From Ramlibacter sp. (GTDB lineage Bacteria; Pseudomonadota; Gammaproteobacteria; Burkholderiales; Burkholderiaceae_C): a DNA stretch of 56,705 nucleotides. The translations under genes were made by a program, and so were the position numbers. Under the pieces are notes generated by a model. That model did no database searches, was not told the origin of the DNA, and was given only the letters and a program-made list of their open reading frames with translations. This document shows, one piece after another, positions 4,331-14,749 of this stretch; the first letter of the stretch is position 1; each line of letters opens with the position of its first letter. The DNA lies in NCBI GenBank assembly GCA_028291885.1, contig JAQGNJ010000109.1, positions 1 through 56,705 of the forward strand. Reading direction: 5' to 3'.

Positions 4331-4704
4331 GTGCTGTCGGGAGGCGCCAACACTCGCCACGACGTGGCGTTGCGGGCCACTGATCTGCGAGCACGGGTGC
4401 AGGCCGGCAACTGGCCAGCCATCGCCGCGCCGGCCGCCGGCCGCCGTGCGAGACGATAGCGGCGGGCCCGGGCGGCGGTTGCCAAGGCGCGACACGATCG
4501 AACAGGCCGCGCAGGTTCCCGCCGCCGCCGAGCGCTGGCAGCGCGCGCCAGCGACACAGGCGTCGCCCGACGGGCCCCTGAACCCGGCCCGGCCAGACGA
4601 CAGCGTGCAGGGCGTTTGGCGGCTCGGCGAAGGACGCGTCCAGTGTTCAGGCGATGAGTGGTGCCGCGGCGGCGTGCAGTTCATACGAGTTGAGGTCACT
4701 GCGG
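4331..4704 (-). other. Non-coding stretch, probably decayed cobQ 5' part
   Basis: No intact gene is visible. Long open frames exist on both strands, but their translations are Arg/Ala/Pro-rich and match nothing I recognise. Given the cobQ pieces just downstream on the minus strand, this is most simply the unrecognisable N-terminal region of the same pseudogene. CobQ is normally about 480-500 residues, so most of its sequence has been deleted here. No riboswitch or terminator hairpin was found. Confidence 0.4.
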
Positions 4705-5154
4705 TCAACGCTCAATGACGCCGACGAGCGCATCTGCGAAGGGCGGCAACTTGGCCAGAATGCCGTTGCGCATCCGCTCCGGCCGCTCTTTGCGGGGCAA
4801 CGCGCCATCGACGCTTTGTTGGTGCATCGCGGCGCAGGCAAGCACCTGGACGGCTGTGACGGCGTCGGCCTGCAGGTCACCGAACACATAGGTGTGCTTG
4901 CCTGTCGCCCGAAGAGCCACGGTGCAGGCGCGCGAGCAGCCGCTCATGCAGGCGATGCCCCTCACGTGCAGACTTGGCGCGGGTCCAGCATCGCTCCCTT
5001 CCCGTTCTTGGGCCGACCTTTGGACGGCGTGCTGTACGGCTTCGAGCAAAGCCTGACCCGCGGGTGGGGAGTCGCGAGACGCTTGCGCAGGGCGACAGCT
5101 CGTGCAGATGAGGACTTCGGTGACGTGCATGGGGCGGTGATCCAGGAGGCTCAT
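4705..5154 (-). CDS. DUF1636 ferredoxin-like protein of the cob cluster
   Basis: A 149-residue small cysteine protein. The N-terminal part has VLICTSCRPAQ (a CxxC), and the middle has GIACMSGCSRACTVALRA followed by GKHTYVFGDL. The C-terminus KERPERMRNGILAKLPP is the family's usual ending. This is the DUF1636 pattern, which I associate with cobalamin loci. The fold is thought to be thioredoxin/2Fe-2S-ferredoxin-like, and its function is not established. A redox partner or metal-handling role near the cobalt chelatase is only inference. The ATG at 5154 is chosen because it overlaps the chlD stop as ATGA. An internal ATG at 5130 is an alternative. Confidence 0.8.
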   Translation of the reverse strand: MSLLDHRPMHVTEVLICTSCRPAQASRDSPPAGQALLEAVQHAVQRSAQEREGSDAGPAPSLHVRGIACMSGCSRACTVALRATGKHTYVFGDLQADAVTAVQVLACAAMHQQSVDGALPRKERPERMRNGILAKLPPFADALVGVIER

Positions 5155-5861
5155 GGTGTTGTCGGACAGGCTGCGCAAGGCTGGCTGGCAAAGCGGTGCT
5201 CGGCGCCCCAACGTGCTGCCCAGGAGGCGCAGCGGCCGATGGGCCGCGATCGCTCGTCAAAGTCAACGATGACGACGTGCTGGGGCACTGTGGGCTGGGC
5301 TGGCTGCTCCAGTGTGCGGCCATCGGTTAGCAACCACAGCCAGGATTCGCCCGCGCCGTTCCCCCGGGCCGCGCGGCGCAGCAACCCTTCGGCCTGTGCC
5401 AGGGCCTGGGTGAGCGGCGTGCCGCCGCCGCCGCCCACGCGGGCCACGCGAGCGCTGCCGGCGCTGCGCGCGCGCCCGGGCGGCAACAGCAGATCGACGC
5501 CCTGGCCGCCGAAGCACAGCAGGCCCACGTCGTCGCCGGAGCGCGCCGCCTCTTGGATCAAAAGCATCGCATGCCCCTTGGCCAGGGCCAGCCGGCCGCG
5601 CTGGCGCATGGAGCCGGACACGTCGAGCACGATCAGGTGCAGGCGCACCGGCTGTGCCGCCCGCGGCCGGCGCCGCAGGTGTTGCGGCTGCAGCGGCCTG
5701 GCACCCTTGGCGAGCAGCGTGGGCAGCCAGGCGATCGGGCCGCTGCTGTGTGAGTCTGCTTCGGCGCGCAGCACGGGCGCCCGGCGTGACGGGTCATGAG
5801 GGCTGAGCCACCGCCAGCCGCCTGGCCCGTGATCCGGGCCGCGGCTGCGGTGGCTCAGGCT
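5151..5861 (-). CDS. chlD: ChlD-type VWA domain of cobalt chelatase, expressed by -1 frameshift
   Basis: This is the C-terminal von Willebrand A module of a magnesium/cobalt-chelatase D subunit. It has the MIDAS motif in LIVLDVSGSMRQRG, a threonine in GGGGTPLTQ, and the later aspartate in WLLTDGRT. Homologous sequence (RWLSPHDPSRRAP) extends upstream of the first possible start, GTG 5774, right up to the end of chlI. No good initiation codon or ribosome site exists there. A -1 slip on the A7 run at 5867-5861 would join it to chlI after residue 358, giving a 594-residue AAA-linker-VWA protein of normal ChlD build. Independent initiation at GTG 5774 (207 residues) is the alternative. The stop overlaps the DUF1636 start. 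Confidence 0.85.
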   Translation of the reverse strand, partial: SLSHRSRGPDHGPGGWRWLSPHDPSRRAPVLRAEADSHSSGPIAWLPTLLAKGARPLQPQHLRRRPRAAQPVRLHLIVLDVSGSMRQRGRLALAKGHAMLLIQEAARSGDDVGLLCFGGQGVDLLLPPGRARSAGSARVARVGGGGGTPLTQALAQAEGLLRRAARGNGAGESWLWLLTDGRTLEQPAQPTVPQHVVIVDFDERSRPIGRCASWAARWGAEHRFASQPCAACPTTP

Positions 5862-5867
5862 TTTTTT
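5803..5867 (-). promoter_or_regulatory. Candidate -1 programmed frameshift signal (slippery A7 plus stem-loop)
   Basis: Read on the minus strand, the chlI frame ends CCA AAA AAA GCC TGA. The A AAA AAA heptamer (5867-5861) is a classical -1 slippery sequence with both lysine codons in register. Two bases later a stem begins: 12 bp (5858-5847 with 5814-5803), then 6 bp (5846-5841 with 5821-5816) and 6 bp (5840-5835 with 5829-5824). Only a 1-nt and a 2-nt bulge interrupt it, and the loop is 5 nt. The chlI stop codon lies inside the first stem. Slippage by -1 enters the VWA frame. The spacing from slip site to stem is shorter than the usual 5-9 nt, so the base of the stem would need to open first. 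Confidence 0.85.
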
Positions 5868-6934
5868 GGTAGCCAGTCTCCCGCCGACTGCACGCGCGTC
5901 GTGGACTCGGGGCGGGGCGGCAGGGCGCCCCAGTCGCCCTCCGGAGCGCGATCGCCGTCCCGGCTGTCACGCGGACGGCTCTCCTCGCCGGCAGACGCTC
6001 CGCCCGCGGCCTGCGGCGTGCCGCCCTGTGCTGCGCGCGGCGGGGCGCTTGCCTCCGCTCCCCGGCGGTGCGCCAGCGCGAGTTCGGCCACGGCATCGAC
6101 ATCGCTCACCGTCACCGCCGTGCGACCTTGCAGGGCCGCCAGCGCGCGCGCGGCGCGCAGCATCACCAGGTCGGCGCGCATGCCGTCCACGGCGGCGGCC
6201 AGCGCGCGGCGGGCCGCATGGTGCAGCACCTCGTCGGACCAGTCCAGGCGCGCCAGTGCCGCCCGCGCGCCGGCGACCGCGGCCACCAGGCGAGCTTGCT
6301 CGCCGGCGTGCACCGCGGCCAGCGCGAGCGGATTCTCATCGAAGCCCAGGCGGGCGCGCGTGATCGCCACCCGCTGTTCGGGCTCGCTCGGGTTGCCCAG
6401 CGTGACCGACAGCCCGAAGCGATCGAGCAGCTGCGGCCGCAGCTCGCCTTCTTCCGGGTTCATCGTTCCCACCAGGACGAAGCGGGCCGCATGCTGCTGC
6501 GACACGCCGTCGCGCTCCACCGTGTTGACGCCGCTGGCGGCCACATCGAGCAGTGCATCGACCAGCGAATCGGGCAGCAGGTTGACTTCGTCGACATAGA
6601 GCACGCCCTGGTGGGCGCGCGCCACCAGGCCGGGCGCCAGGCGCAGGTGGCCGTCGCGCAGCACGCCTTCCACGTCCAGCGTGCCGACCAGTTGCTCCAG
6701 GCTGGCGGCCAGCGGCAGCGTCACGAAGGGCGCGCCCGGCAGCAAGGCGGCCAGGGCGCGCGCCGCGGTGGACTTGGCGCTGCCGCGCGGACCGCTGATC
6801 AGGACGCCGCCGATCCCGGGGTCGATCGCCGAGAGCAGCAGCGCCTGTTGCAGCAGCGGCTGGCCGACCAGGGCGGCAAAGGGAAACGCCGGTCGGCTGG
6901 CGGCTTCGAGGTGCAACTTGGGTGCGGTGGTCAT
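5855..6934 (-). CDS. chlI: ChlI-like AAA+ subunit of cobalt chelatase (zero-frame product)
   Basis: A 359-residue AAA+ ATPase of the BchI/ChlI family. The Walker A is GPRGSAKST, the Walker B is GVLYVDEVNLL, and a sensor/arginine region reads VGTMNPEEGELRPQLLDRFG. After the helical lid (residues up to about 290) comes an acidic/proline-rich linker (EESRPRDSRDGDRAPEGD) of the kind that joins AAA and VWA parts in D subunits. The zero frame stops just after it. The start at ATG 6934 overlaps the cobN stop (ATGA). No separate chlI, cobS or cobT is present in the window, so this short product and its frameshifted long form could supply both partner subunits of CobN. Confidence 0.9.
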   Translation of the reverse strand: MTTAPKLHLEAASRPAFPFAALVGQPLLQQALLLSAIDPGIGGVLISGPRGSAKSTAARALAALLPGAPFVTLPLAASLEQLVGTLDVEGVLRDGHLRLAPGLVARAHQGVLYVDEVNLLPDSLVDALLDVAASGVNTVERDGVSQQHAARFVLVGTMNPEEGELRPQLLDRFGLSVTLGNPSEPEQRVAITRARLGFDENPLALAAVHAGEQARLVAAVAGARAALARLDWSDEVLHHAARRALAAAVDGMRADLVMLRAARALAALQGRTAVTVSDVDAVAELALAHRRGAEASAPPRAAQGGTPQAAGGASAGEESRPRDSRDGDRAPEGDWGALPPRPESTTRVQSAGDWLPKKA

Positions 6935-9900
6935 GGCAGGGGCCCTTCGCCGTGTTCTTCGAGCCGGCGCTCCAGCGCCAGCAGGTGTTCTTCGATGCGC
7001 TCGCGGTGCTCGCCGGGTTGTTCCCACAGGCCGCGCCGCATCGCTTCGAGCAGGCGCTCGCCGAGGCCGCGCAGCGCCTGCGGGTTGTGCTGCTGCAGGA
7101 ACTCGCGCGTGCTGTCGTCGTGCAGATAGGCGTCGGCGATCAGCGCGTACTGTGGGTCGCCGACCACGCCGGTGGTGGCGTCGAATGCAAAAAGGTTGTC
7201 CACGGTGGCCGCGATCTCGCAGGCGCCCTTGTAGCCATGGCGACGCACACCCTCGATCCACTTGGGGTTGACGGCGCGGGATCGCAGCACGCGCGCCACC
7301 TCTTCGCGCAGCGTCCGGATCCGCGGCGAACCGGGGACGCTGAAGTCGCCGTGGTACAGCGCCGCGGGTGCGCCGGCCAGGTGCTGCACCGCCGCCGCCA
7401 TGCCGCCCTGGAACTGGGCGTAGTCGGCCGAGTCGAGCACGTCGTGCTCGCGGTTGTCCTGGTTGTGCAGCACGGCGTCGAGCTGCGCCAGGCGCTGCTC
7501 GAACGCGCCGCGCGCCGGGGCGCCGTGATCGCCCTGGCCGTAGGCGAACGCGCCGGCGCGCAGGTAAGCCTGGGCGAGCTCGCCGACCGCCTGCCAGCGT
7601 CCGCTGTCCATGAGGTCCTGCATCCCGGTGCCATAGCCGCCCGGGCGGGGCCCGAAGACGCGCCAGCTGGCCTGGCGCAGGGCGGCCTCGGGCGCCTGGC
7701 CGGCGGCCTGCGCCTGGGCGGCTTCGCGCTGCACCCGGGCGCGGATCGGGTTCACGTCGTCGGGTTCATCGTCCTCGCTGATGGCCGCGACGGCGCGCAC
7801 CGCGGTGTCGAAGAGGTCGATCGCGTTCGGGAAGGCGTCGCGGAAGAAGCCCGATACGCGCAAGGTCACGTCCACCCGCGGCCGGTTGCGGATGGCCATC
7901 GGCAGCAGCTCGATGTCCACCACGCGGCCGCTGCCCTCGGCCCACTTGGGCCGCACGCCCAGCAGCGCGAAAGCCTGGGCCAGGTCTTCGCCGCCGGTGC
8001 GCATGGTGCTGGTGCCCCAGACCGACAGGCCGACCTCGCGCAACATCTCGCCATGGTCCTGCAGGTGGCGCTCGATCACCCGCTCGGCCGCCGCCGCGCC
8101 CATGGCGTAGGCCGTGGGCGTGGGCACGCAGCGGGTGTCGACGGAATAGAAGTTGCGACCGGTCGGCAGCACGTCGGGACGGCCGCGCGACGGTGCGCCG
8201 CTAGGGCCGGGCGGCACGAAGCGGCCCGCCAGCCCGCGCAGCAGCTGGGTCATCTCCTGCGGGCCGCAGGCGTCCAGGCGCGGGCCCAGCACCTGGCGCA
8301 GGCGCTGCAGCACAGGCGCGGTGTGGGGCCAGGCCGCCGCCTCGAGCGGATTGGCGTCGGCGGCCGTCACGTGCTCGGCCACCAGCCGCGTGGCCAGCAG
8401 CTCCAGCCGTTCGCGCGTGTGACCGGCATGGCGCCAGGCCTCGGCGCTGAGCTGCTGCAGCACGGCCGGGCGCGGGCCTTGCCAGGGCTTGGCCCACTCC
8501 GGGTCCAGCACCTTGAAACCCTCCACGGCATCGAGCCCCAGGTCCTGCGCCAGCGCCGCCAGCAGGCTGCGCTGGCCAGGCGCCGGACCGCCGGGAAAGC
8601 GCGCCAGCGCCACCAGGGTGTCGATTCGCTGGCGGCCCTGGGGTGAGCGGCCCAGCGTGTGCAGCCCGTCGCGGATCTGCGATTCCTTGATCTCGCACAG
8701 GTAGGCATCCAGCCGCGTCAACAGGCCTTCGCGCGCCGCGTCGTCGGTGGGCCGGGCGACACCCAGTTCCTCGTGGAGTTGTTCGCGCAGAACCCGTTCC
8801 AGGATGTCCGCGCGCAGCCGGCGCGCCCGCCGCGGATCCAGCGCCAAGGCCTCGTAGTACTCGTCCATCTGCCGCTCCAGCTGCTGCAGCGGACCGTAGC
8901 TTTCGGCGCGGGTCATCGCCGGCATCAGGTGATCGATGATCACGGCCTGGGTGCGCCGCTTGGCCTGGCTGCCCTCGCCGGGGTCGTTGACGATGAAGGG
9001 GTACAGGTGCGGCAGCGGGCCCAGGATGGCGTCGGGCCAGCAGGCCGCACCCAGCGCCACGCTCTTGCCCGGCAGCCATTCGAGGTTGCCGTGCGTGCCC
9101 ACATGCACCAGGGCATCGACCTGGAAGCTGCGGCGCAGCCAGAAGTAGAACGCCAGGTAGTTGTGCGGCGGAACGAGATCGGCGTCGTGGTAGCTGGCCA
9201 CCAGGTCCATGTCGCGCCCGCGCGCCGGCTGGATGCCGACGAAGACATGGCCAAAGCGCAGGCCGGGGATCATGAAGCGGCCGCTGCGCAGCATCGGATC
9301 CTGTTCGGGCGGGCCCCAGAGCGTGGCGACGGTGGCCCGGCTCGCGGCCGGCAGGCGGGCGAAATCTTCCAGGTAGTCGGCCAGTGCCAGGCTCTGCCCC
9401 GCCGGCCGCGCGTCGTTGGCGCCCAGGTGATTGGTGACGCTGCGCGTCAAGGCTGCGATCAGCGCGTCGCCGCCGGCCGGCAGTTCGCCCGTGCTGTAGC
9501 CGGCCTCCCGCAATGCGGCCAGGATGGCCACCGTGGAAGCCGGCGTGTCCAGCCCCACGCCATGGGCCAGGCGGGAGTCGCCGCCGGGATAGTTGGCCAG
9601 GATCAGCGCGATGCGCTTGTCGGCGTTGGGCTTCTCGCGCAGCGTGCACCAGCGGCGCGCCAGTTCGGCCACGAAGGCCATGCGTTCGGGCTCGGGCTGG
9701 TAACGCACCACGTCCAGCTCGGTGCGCTCGCAGCGCCAGGCCAGCCCCTTGAAGCTGATGGCGCGCGTCACTATGCGGCCGTCCACCTCGGGCAGCACCA
9801 CCTGCATGGCCAGGTCGCGCGGCGCCAGGCCGTGCGGGTCGGCCTGCCACTGCTCGAGCGAGCAGCCCGCGGTGATGAGTTGCAGGACGGGGGCGTCGCC

Positions 9901-10773
9901 GGCCAGTCCAACTGCGGCTGCGCCCGCGCCGCCGGCTTCGCTGCCGTCAGCGTCGGCGTCCAGGGCGGCGACCGCGAAGTTGGTCGCGTTCAGCACGATC
10001 CCCACCCGGTGTTGCGCGGCCAGCGAGCGCACCAGGGCCTGGCTGACCGGGTTCTTGAGCGAATCCACGGCCAGCGCCAGCGCGTTCAGCCCGGTGTCCG
10101 CCAGCGCGGCCAGCATGGCATCGAACACCGCCGTGTTGCCCGACTGCAGGTGGGCCCGGTAGAACAGCAGCAGGGCCACCGCGGCGTCCGCTTTCCAGGG
10201 CGGCAGGCTGGCACTGCCTTGCGGCCGATACAGGAGGGCCGGGGGCAAGGCCGCAGGCGGCGCAGGGCGTGCTCCAAGGCCGAACGCGGCGTGGCCGATC
10301 AGCGCGAAAAAGGCCAGCGCGTTGTCGCGCCCGCCTTCGCGCAGGCAGCGCCACAGGTGCCTGCAGTCATCGTGCGTCGCGCTGCTTCGCAGCAGCAGCT
10401 GCGGGTCTTCGCTGGAGTCGCCCGAGAACATGGCCAGCCACTGGCCGCGCTCGCGCGCCAGCGTGGTCGCGCGTTCCACCACATAGGCCCAGTCGCTGGG
10501 GCTGCCCAGGTGGTCGATGACCACCACACGCGCATGGCGCAGCACGTCGTCCACGTACAGGTCCGCCGAGGCCGGCTGGCGCAGCGACATCAGGTTGACC
10601 AGCCGCACGCTGGGGTAGTCAGGCGCGAGCTGCGCGGCGACGTCGGACAGCAGCGACAAGGTGGTGTCCGCGGCGCTGAGCACCACGACCTCGCCGGGGC
10701 TCTGGGCGACGCGCACGACGCCCTGGCCACCGTCTTCGACGTGGCCGCCTGGGCGCGTGGACAGCAGATGCAT
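6931..10773 (-). CDS. cobN: Cobaltochelatase large subunit CobN
   Basis: A 1280-residue CobN/BchH-family protein, normal in length. It binds hydrogenobyrinate a,c-diamide and inserts Co(II), driven by the AAA+ partners encoded directly downstream. Family landmarks include ALILANYPGGDSRLAHGVGLDTPAS, LVASYHDADLVPPHNYLAFYFWL, VHVGTHGNLEWLPGKS, and near the end GYGTGMQDLMDSGRWQ and a WIEGVRRHGYKGACEIA block. The start at ATG 10773 lies 17 bases behind the cobW stop. The stop overlaps chlI as ATGA, which fits a fixed ratio of chelatase subunits. Cytosolic. Large plus-strand open frames opposite it are GC-driven shadows. Confidence 0.96.
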   Translation of the reverse strand: MHLLSTRPGGHVEDGGQGVVRVAQSPGEVVVLSAADTTLSLLSDVAAQLAPDYPSVRLVNLMSLRQPASADLYVDDVLRHARVVVIDHLGSPSDWAYVVERATTLARERGQWLAMFSGDSSEDPQLLLRSSATHDDCRHLWRCLREGGRDNALAFFALIGHAAFGLGARPAPPAALPPALLYRPQGSASLPPWKADAAVALLLFYRAHLQSGNTAVFDAMLAALADTGLNALALAVDSLKNPVSQALVRSLAAQHRVGIVLNATNFAVAALDADADGSEAGGAGAAAVGLAGDAPVLQLITAGCSLEQWQADPHGLAPRDLAMQVVLPEVDGRIVTRAISFKGLAWRCERTELDVVRYQPEPERMAFVAELARRWCTLREKPNADKRIALILANYPGGDSRLAHGVGLDTPASTVAILAALREAGYSTGELPAGGDALIAALTRSVTNHLGANDARPAGQSLALADYLEDFARLPAASRATVATLWGPPEQDPMLRSGRFMIPGLRFGHVFVGIQPARGRDMDLVASYHDADLVPPHNYLAFYFWLRRSFQVDALVHVGTHGNLEWLPGKSVALGAACWPDAILGPLPHLYPFIVNDPGEGSQAKRRTQAVIIDHLMPAMTRAESYGPLQQLERQMDEYYEALALDPRRARRLRADILERVLREQLHEELGVARPTDDAAREGLLTRLDAYLCEIKESQIRDGLHTLGRSPQGRQRIDTLVALARFPGGPAPGQRSLLAALAQDLGLDAVEGFKVLDPEWAKPWQGPRPAVLQQLSAEAWRHAGHTRERLELLATRLVAEHVTAADANPLEAAAWPHTAPVLQRLRQVLGPRLDACGPQEMTQLLRGLAGRFVPPGPSGAPSRGRPDVLPTGRNFYSVDTRCVPTPTAYAMGAAAAERVIERHLQDHGEMLREVGLSVWGTSTMRTGGEDLAQAFALLGVRPKWAEGSGRVVDIELLPMAIRNRPRVDVTLRVSGFFRDAFPNAIDLFDTAVRAVAAISEDDEPDDVNPIRARVQREAAQAQAAGQAPEAALRQASWRVFGPRPGGYGTGMQDLMDSGRWQAVGELAQAYLRAGAFAYGQGDHGAPARGAFEQRLAQLDAVLHNQDNREHDVLDSADYAQFQGGMAAAVQHLAGAPAALYHGDFSVPGSPRIRTLREEVARVLRSRAVNPKWIEGVRRHGYKGACEIAATVDNLFAFDATTGVVGDPQYALIADAYLHDDSTREFLQQHNPQALRGLGERLLEAMRRGLWEQPGEHRERIEEHLLALERRLEEHGEGPLP

Positions 10774-14294: not shown

Positions 14295-14459
14295 GGCGCG
14301 CATCGGACTGCCGCCCGGACCGCGTGATCTGTGGCGCAGTCGGCGTGCCGCAGGAAGCCGAAAAAGACGAAACATCAGGGAACCGCCGGAACAATCGCGC
14401 TCGCCCGCTTCCCCGCAGGCCTGCGCCGTAAGGCGCGCCGTTTGCATGACGCGCCGCCT

Positions 14460-14675
14460 CGTTGGCCGGTATCCGGGCTGGCGAAGGCAACCGGTGTTTC
14501 CTTCCCAGACGCCGATGGCGCCCAGTGGATTGCAGACACAGGCTGTGAGCACATGTGCTCACGTTCGCTTACCGTTGCGGGGGCAGCTCAGGTTAGGGCG
14601 CGCCGGCATGTACGGGCGCGCCCCTCCTGATTCCCGTTGAACTGCTTTGGCTGTAGCCATCGCGAGCACCAACGA
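14460..14675 (-). promoter_or_regulatory. Cobalamin (AdoCbl) riboswitch
   Basis: Minus-strand leader of the cob operon. Reading 5' to 3' it contains GGGAATCAGG (about 14640-14628), GCTGCCCCCGCAACGGTAAG (around 14586-14567), CACTGGGCGCC (about 14528-14516), GGGAAGG (14506-14500) and the B12 box AGCCCGGATACCGGCC (14479-14464). These are the conserved blocks of the cobalamin riboswitch in the right order and spacing. Ligand binding should repress expression of cobU* and the genes behind it. About 170 nt separate the B12 box from the first start codon, room for an expression platform. I did not identify a clear terminator in it. Confidence 0.93.
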
Positions 14676-14749
14676 TCTCATGATAGCAGGCGGACCTTCA
14701 CAGGCGTTGAGCCCTGCCGCTCGCGTGACGTAAGATCGCCGCCGCCTCA

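Follow-up and report, generated by a model that had tools for sequence, protein, structure and literature searches.

Within a B12 (cob) cluster of Ramlibacter sp. (GCA_028291885.1, contig JAQGNJ010000109.1), a minus-strand reading frame encoding a ChlI-like AAA+ protein closes just downstream of a run of seven A's, and a ChlD-like VWA module follows in the overlapping -1 frame. The locus, analysed within a 56,705-nt stretch of DNA (hereafter the window), raises the question of how the VWA part is translated and whether a single gene provides two subunits of a cobaltochelatase. Programmed -1 ribosomal frameshifting, as an earlier note on this DNA had proposed, is by far the best reading, and we hold it with high confidence because the heptamer, the position of the stop codon, the position of a downstream stem and its covariation are conserved in 66 junctions, and because reporter tests of three relatives in E. 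coli have been published. The mechanism is already in print for the chlD family, of which the window is a further member, namely a new and well-preserved fs-chlD example; what is added here is a Shine-Dalgarno (SD)-like GGGAGA element, unmentioned for the chelatase in those portions of the literature examined.

The coordinates of the relevant features are collected in Table 1. The AAA+ frame opens with an ATG that shares 4 nt (ATGA) with the cobN stop codon, and it contains the Walker-A-like stretch GPRGSAKST. Matches to TIGR02442 (5e-110) and BchI-ChlI (4e-91) were obtained, both below the curated cut-offs. The 3' end reads CTA CCA AAA AAA GCC TGA, with A7 to TGA at 5855-5867, in agreement with the earlier note, and translation of both frames reproduced the proposed product sizes of 359 and 594 residues, the latter being the ChlD-like -1 product (358 + 236), which retains the entire AAA+ sequence. 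A VWA module is indeed encoded in the -1 frame (Pfam VWA_2 at residues 76-181), but the further claim that this frame is ChlD-like right from the junction is an overstatement, since its TIGR02442 match starts at residue 57 (model positions 457-584). Both parts thus hit TIGR02442, the NCBIfam model of a 'putative cobaltochelatase', the best stretch of the AAA+ frame covering model positions 87-350; scored apart, the two frames reached 368.8 and 80.4 bits, the whole-protein cut-off being 779.45. The linker preceding the VWA match is variable and about 44-56 residues long. In the alignment, residues 4 to about 44 of the -1 frame are poorly conserved, and W45 is the next invariant column after the first three residues (S-L-S), which may be conserved merely because the DNA signal is.

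Table 1. Features of the fs-chlD locus and of its surroundings in the window.
Feature	Coordinates	Strand	Remarks
Cobalamin riboswitch heading the minus-strand cob cluster	14447..14688	-	RF00174, 68.1 bits (gathering score 31.5)
cobN (large subunit of the cobaltochelatase), adjoining fs-chlD on its upstream side	6931..10773	-	TIGR02257, 1515 bits (cut-off 822)
0-frame ORF, AAA+ (ChlI-like) subunit, 359 aa	5855..6934	-	Pfam AAA_5, AAA_lid_2, Mg_chelatase
SD-like GGGAGA, candidate upstream stimulator	5877..5882	-	-6.9 kcal/mol with the anti-SD
Slippery heptamer A_AAA_AAA (A7)	5861..5867	-	A_AAA_AAR in 66/66 distinct junctions
GCC codon between A7 and stop	5858-5860	-	
0-frame stop TGA, one codon past the heptamer	5855..5857	-	position common to 64/66 junctions
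Candidate stimulatory stem-loop of 24 bp around a 5-nt loop, with bulges of 2 and 1 nt	5803..5858	-	from folding
Conserved part of the stem, 6 nt past the heptamer	5807..5854	-	5847-5854 pairing with 5807-5814
-1 frame entered by slipping (236 residues), a linker followed by the VWA module	5151..5861	-	stop at 5151-5153

The gene belongs to the aerobic B12 pathway. Upstream there are, besides cobN, cobW and the genes for an adenosyltransferase of CobO type and an amidotransferase of CobB type; DUF1636, a sulfite-reductase-type protein that we take to be CobG-like, CbiC and two tetrapyrrole methylases are encoded downstream, with CbiJ/CobK on the opposite strand. In the draft genome of the window (G000; 340 contigs, 91.5% complete), fs-chlD was the sole strong ChlI/ChlD-type match, the other ChlI-like matches showing at most 34% identity and being either short or of low significance (E no better than 5e-9). 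cobN is present, and no separate small-subunit gene was found, neither CobT nor CobS giving any match, although at a completeness of 91.5% one may be missing from the assembly. A CobN match was found in 34/34 genomes examined; by match positions, the end of cobN lies at most 130 nt from the AAA part in 18 of 20 relatives of the family, the gap being 2.1 kb in G190 and the two parts falling on different contigs in G109. Two genomes of the same genus (G097 and G198, both rated 100% complete) gave neither a VWA-part nor a cobN match, and the cob/fs-chlD cluster looks patchy within the genus.

Relatives were collected by genome searches that each retrieved up to 30 loci. With the VWA part as query, 65 of 200 genomes of the family matched, the window's own included, and from the 64 others 29 loci were examined: AAA+ and VWA parts stood in a -1 relation in 20, seven were single-frame, with about 30% AAA identity, and two were without an AAA part. 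A contig scan yielded 66 named loci, 36 with a -1 junction, one spurious -1 case (L079), five single-frame loci and 24 without an AAA part. Searches at the level of the order (399 genomes, 90 of them matching) and of the class (369 genomes, 77 matching), with mostly weak or distant matches, added at least 58 loci, 13 of them with heptamer and -1 junction; here the heptamer was a condition of inclusion, and 13 of 16 rows scored '-1' were kept. For the first 57 loci, from which L079 had already been removed as two separate genes, inclusion was independent of the heptamer. L079, L128, L129 and L133, although scored '-1', were dropped: about 1.1 kb separates their AAA match from the VWA match that follows it, a stop closely follows the AAA match, and the heptamer is absent there, as expected for two separate genes; L157, scored '+1' and matching the VWA part from query residue 125 on, was dropped too, and loci without an AAA or a VWA match were left uncounted. 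The resulting 70 junctions comprise 66 distinct ones, and among the named carriers of fs-chlD are Variovorax, Hydrogenophaga, Rhodoferax, Caballeronia, Cupriavidus, Paraburkholderia, Burkholderia, Pandoraea, Pseudothauera and Pseudomonas. As the junctions are related by descent, p-values given below are too small and the statistics inflated.

All 66 distinct junctions carry A_AAA_AAR, as A_AAA_AAA in 49 and as A_AAA_AAG in 17, and the heptamer was found in every one of the first 57 loci, where its presence had no bearing on inclusion. Within the AAA parts, over all 66 genes compared, it occurred at none of 22,211 in-phase codon positions. The A run is seven long in 49 junctions, six followed by G in 14, eight in two and ten in one. 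The 0-frame stop (TGA in 56, TAG in nine, TAA in one) stands one codon past the heptamer except in L025 and L026, where it stands eight codons past and falls within the stem region; heptamer and stem are retained in both. The junction alignment in relatives that the earlier note had put forward as a check came out in its favour, for the heptamer and the stem as for the two frames.

In the window, the reported 24-bp stem with two small bulges was recovered two bases past A7 (75-nt fold, -52.1 kcal/mol, z -6.4). A 101-nt fold gave -63.1 kcal/mol and z -6.9, with none of 200 shuffles as stable, and placed a stem of 23 bp three bases past A7. Across the family, folding energy is unremarkable (median z -1.8; z < -2 in 27/57), 23 of 57 loci being more stable than all their control windows. 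It is rather the position of the helix that is shared. Among 56 junctions, the longest uninterrupted helix peaks 6 nt past the heptamer, at a mean of 8.62 bp against a background of 4.21 bp over 70 offsets (sd 0.27, highest 4.82), and at least seven of eight Watson-Crick pairs form at this place in 58/66 junctions compared with 10.9% of 2505 control positions. Covariation was assessed on the 28 distinct rows of an alignment of 29, drawn from the 66 by a stem span of 48 nt that was chosen for best pairing, which biases the set toward pairing: in six of ten pairs both partners had changed while remaining paired (shuffled mean 3.9; 7/500 as high), and the covariation score was 0.379 (shuffled mean 0.149, 0/500 as high; highest slid version 0.225). 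RNAalifold independently picked six basal pairs of the same conserved helix. Departures from Watson-Crick pairing in the first eight pairs number 40 over the 66 junctions, namely 15 G-U, five A-C and 20 others (14, two and 18 of 34 in a smaller 55-locus set), and since G-U is commoner than A-C, the pattern leans to a stem acting in the sense RNA. L143 and L145 each carry a further run of eight A's immediately past the short stem. The fixed spacing of 6 nt is unmentioned for the chelatase family in the portions of literature examined, and it may be in Antonov 2020.

Upstream of the heptamer, the GGGAGA of the window lies at -15, that is 9 nt ahead. When anti-SD pairing was followed along the mRNA of 56 junctions, the hexamer peak fell at the same offset of -15 (mean -3.27 kcal/mol; background -0.92), and pairing of -4 kcal/mol or stronger at offsets -18 to -12 was seen in 28/66 junctions against 13.9% of matched control places. 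The element tracks relatedness to the window, being present in 10/11 junctions with at least 70% AAA identity (window included), in 16/38 with 60-70% and in 2/17 below 60%. Glycine codons at the site are GGA in 12/44 cases compared with 75/1790 elsewhere in the same frames (Fisher p 4e-7, overstated by common descent), so that codon choice, and not the peptide alone, appears to be biased. According to Atkins et al. 2016 (PMC5009743), an SD placed 9-14 nt before the shift site serves -1 shifting and is a major feature of dnaX; the 9-nt internal spacing in the window falls inside this range, which makes the element a putative stimulator. An SD is not mentioned for the chelatase in the chelatase section of PMC5009743 or in the text seen of PMC3711429 and PMC9227772, and may be in Antonov 2020. 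On this basis we tentatively suggest that the Comamonadaceae branch near the window has a full dnaX-type cassette, slipping well above 10% and giving about equal amounts of short and long subunits, and that distant branches reach their ratio without an SD; this is possible, although we would not rate it as probable. Three family genes with 11, 9 and 7 A's shifted at 63, 40 and 10% in E. coli, as measured by Antonov et al. 2013 (PMC3711429), and that the published seven-A construct reached only 10% counts against the frameshift reading of the window. If the suggestion is true, one homologous gene shows a clade-by-clade tuning of the subunit ratio.

Taken together, programmed frameshifting would proceed as follows. 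Ribosomes translating the AAA+ frame would reach A_AAA_AAA, where the stem, with its conserved base 6 nt downstream, would hold them at the slip site, probably helped by pairing of the upstream GGGAGA with 16S rRNA. A fraction of them would slip back by one base and continue into the VWA module, yielding the 594-aa medium (ChlD/CobT-like) subunit, while those that do not slip would add one alanine, meet TGA and release the 359-aa small (ChlI/CobS-like) subunit. Both products would serve the CobN encoded upstream in cobalt insertion, with a presumed division of labour.

An alternative that accepts the frameshift is that the long protein suffices as the enzyme, the short product being a by-product or a regulator. 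The long product does keep a complete AAA+ sequence, and single-frame chlD occurs in five genomes (G864, G949, G857, G779 and G954, the last being Marinomonas sp. MED121) that all have a cobN match, although that of G954 comes in two pieces on opposite strands. Neither a second strong ChlI nor a strong CobS was found in them, CobT having been searched in the genome of the window only. These five genomes may supply the small subunit in another way or do without it. We nevertheless regard this alternative as improbable: a stop fixed one codon past the slip in 64/66 junctions suggests that the short form is purposely kept, and known class I chelatases combine CobS with CobT, or ChlI with ChlD, besides the large subunit. 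A second strong ChlI-type match is missing in 24/26 fs-chlD genomes (20/21 and 4/5), the others being G109 (49%) and G907 (45%). A CobS-like gene scoring 497-525 bits, below the cut-off of 558.55, is also carried by the fs-chlD genomes G158, G018, G175, G147 and G069, and the single-frame genomes G880 and G638 have a CobS above the cut-off. That one gene supplies two indispensable partners is likely but no more than that, given the single-frame genomes that have cobN and no detected small subunit.

The linkers of single-frame loci were inspected for a shift signal. No X_XXY_YYZ heptamer was present in L051, L140-L142, L144, L146 and L147, nor any slippery site in L149; the linker of L075 (G954) has CCCAAAC only, and that of the AT-rich L152 has many A and T runs. 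L140, L144, L146, L147 and L075 are the loci of the five genomes named above. L051 (Acidovorax sp. SUPP3334, G953:C66) is single-frame and has no A7, and the cobN match there holds two TAA codons and a frame change; the G953 cluster is possibly decaying.

Translational coupling or internal initiation would instead make the VWA protein a separately started subunit. An in-frame ATG, GTG or TTG does occur between the slip site and the first VWA strand in 59/66 junctions, and the SD-like sequence shortly ahead of the stop codon in 28/66 could be read in this sense. Yet an internal start with anti-SD pairing of -5 kcal/mol or stronger at 4-10 nt was found in just six of 66, at scattered places. The earlier note had seen no start codon with a ribosome site for the VWA part, and indeed none is conserved: the single VWA-frame start of the window before the first VWA strand is a GTG at 5774 with an anti-SD pairing of -2.5 kcal/mol, and the 9-nt interval downstream of the SD-like element ends in the A run, where ATG, GTG and TTG are absent. 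Separate starts, moreover, leave the fixed heptamer and the 6-nt spacing of the stem unexplained, and we consider them very unlikely. We are equally disinclined to accept transcriptional slippage on A7, by which mixed mRNAs would arise, one of them fusing the frames. The A runs, mostly 6-7 long, are mostly short of the length threshold for such slippage, A_AAA_AAG is a ribosomal shift heptamer, and a covarying stem at a fixed downstream spacing also argues against an event in transcription. In its favour, A7 is a homopolymer, and PMC4066793 names transcript slippage as a possible cause of A7 avoidance in E. coli genes.

On the plus strand, the stem followed by T7 could be an intrinsic terminator of an antisense transcript, and it is indeed the sole terminator-like match in 4500-7200; about one such match is expected there by chance (mean 0.9), the conserved stem base in relatives lies 6 nt from the T run, and the G-U over A-C excess (15 vs 5) leans to the sense RNA, which together make a terminator extremely improbable. 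A sequencing error or a pseudogene, conceivable in a draft assembly and listed in the earlier note as a refuting outcome, has a negligible probability and is already refuted by the relatives, as the same frame relation and signal recur in 65 further distinct junctions spread over many genera, some of them in single-contig assemblies such as G099, G120 and G072.

Programmed frameshifting at chlD is thus a phylogenetically well-supported case of one gene giving two subunits of a metal-inserting motor through ribosome slippage. The 66 junctions show an invariant order of heptamer, a single codon, stop and a stem at 6 nt, the SD-like stimulator emerges as a testable candidate, and those single-frame relatives in which no small subunit was detected ask whether the short product is needed.

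Among known systems, the single-frame TIGR02442-like chlD genes resemble the window in having AAA+ followed by VWA and cobN in the genome, and differ from it in lacking the frame change and, in the seven linkers listed above (L051 to L147), the X_XXY_YYZ heptamer. The products of E. coli dnaX are AAA+ proteins as well, and there the slip gives the short product, whereas in the window it gives the long one. By published descriptions, dnaX shares with the window an upstream SD, an A-rich heptamer, a downstream stem and two products from one gene, its heptamer (A_AAA_AAG) ending in G and that of the window in A. The closest counterpart is fs-chlD itself. Antonov et al. 2013 (PMC3711429) described a -1 shifting cluster of 23 genes including those of Delftia, Burkholderia and Pseudomonas, and later work (Atkins et al. 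2016, PMC5009743; Kuznetsov et al. 2022, PMC9227772) states that fs-chlD yields both cobalt-chelatase subunits, so that what the earlier note said of published frameshifting in chlD of cobN genomes is borne out. From this family the window differs in nothing of kind, and it shares with it the ChlI-like AAA+ part followed by the ChlD-like VWA part in the overlapping -1 frame, the conserved A_AAA_AAR in the overlap, the downstream RNA structure, the use for a cobalt chelatase and a small subunit from the same gene.
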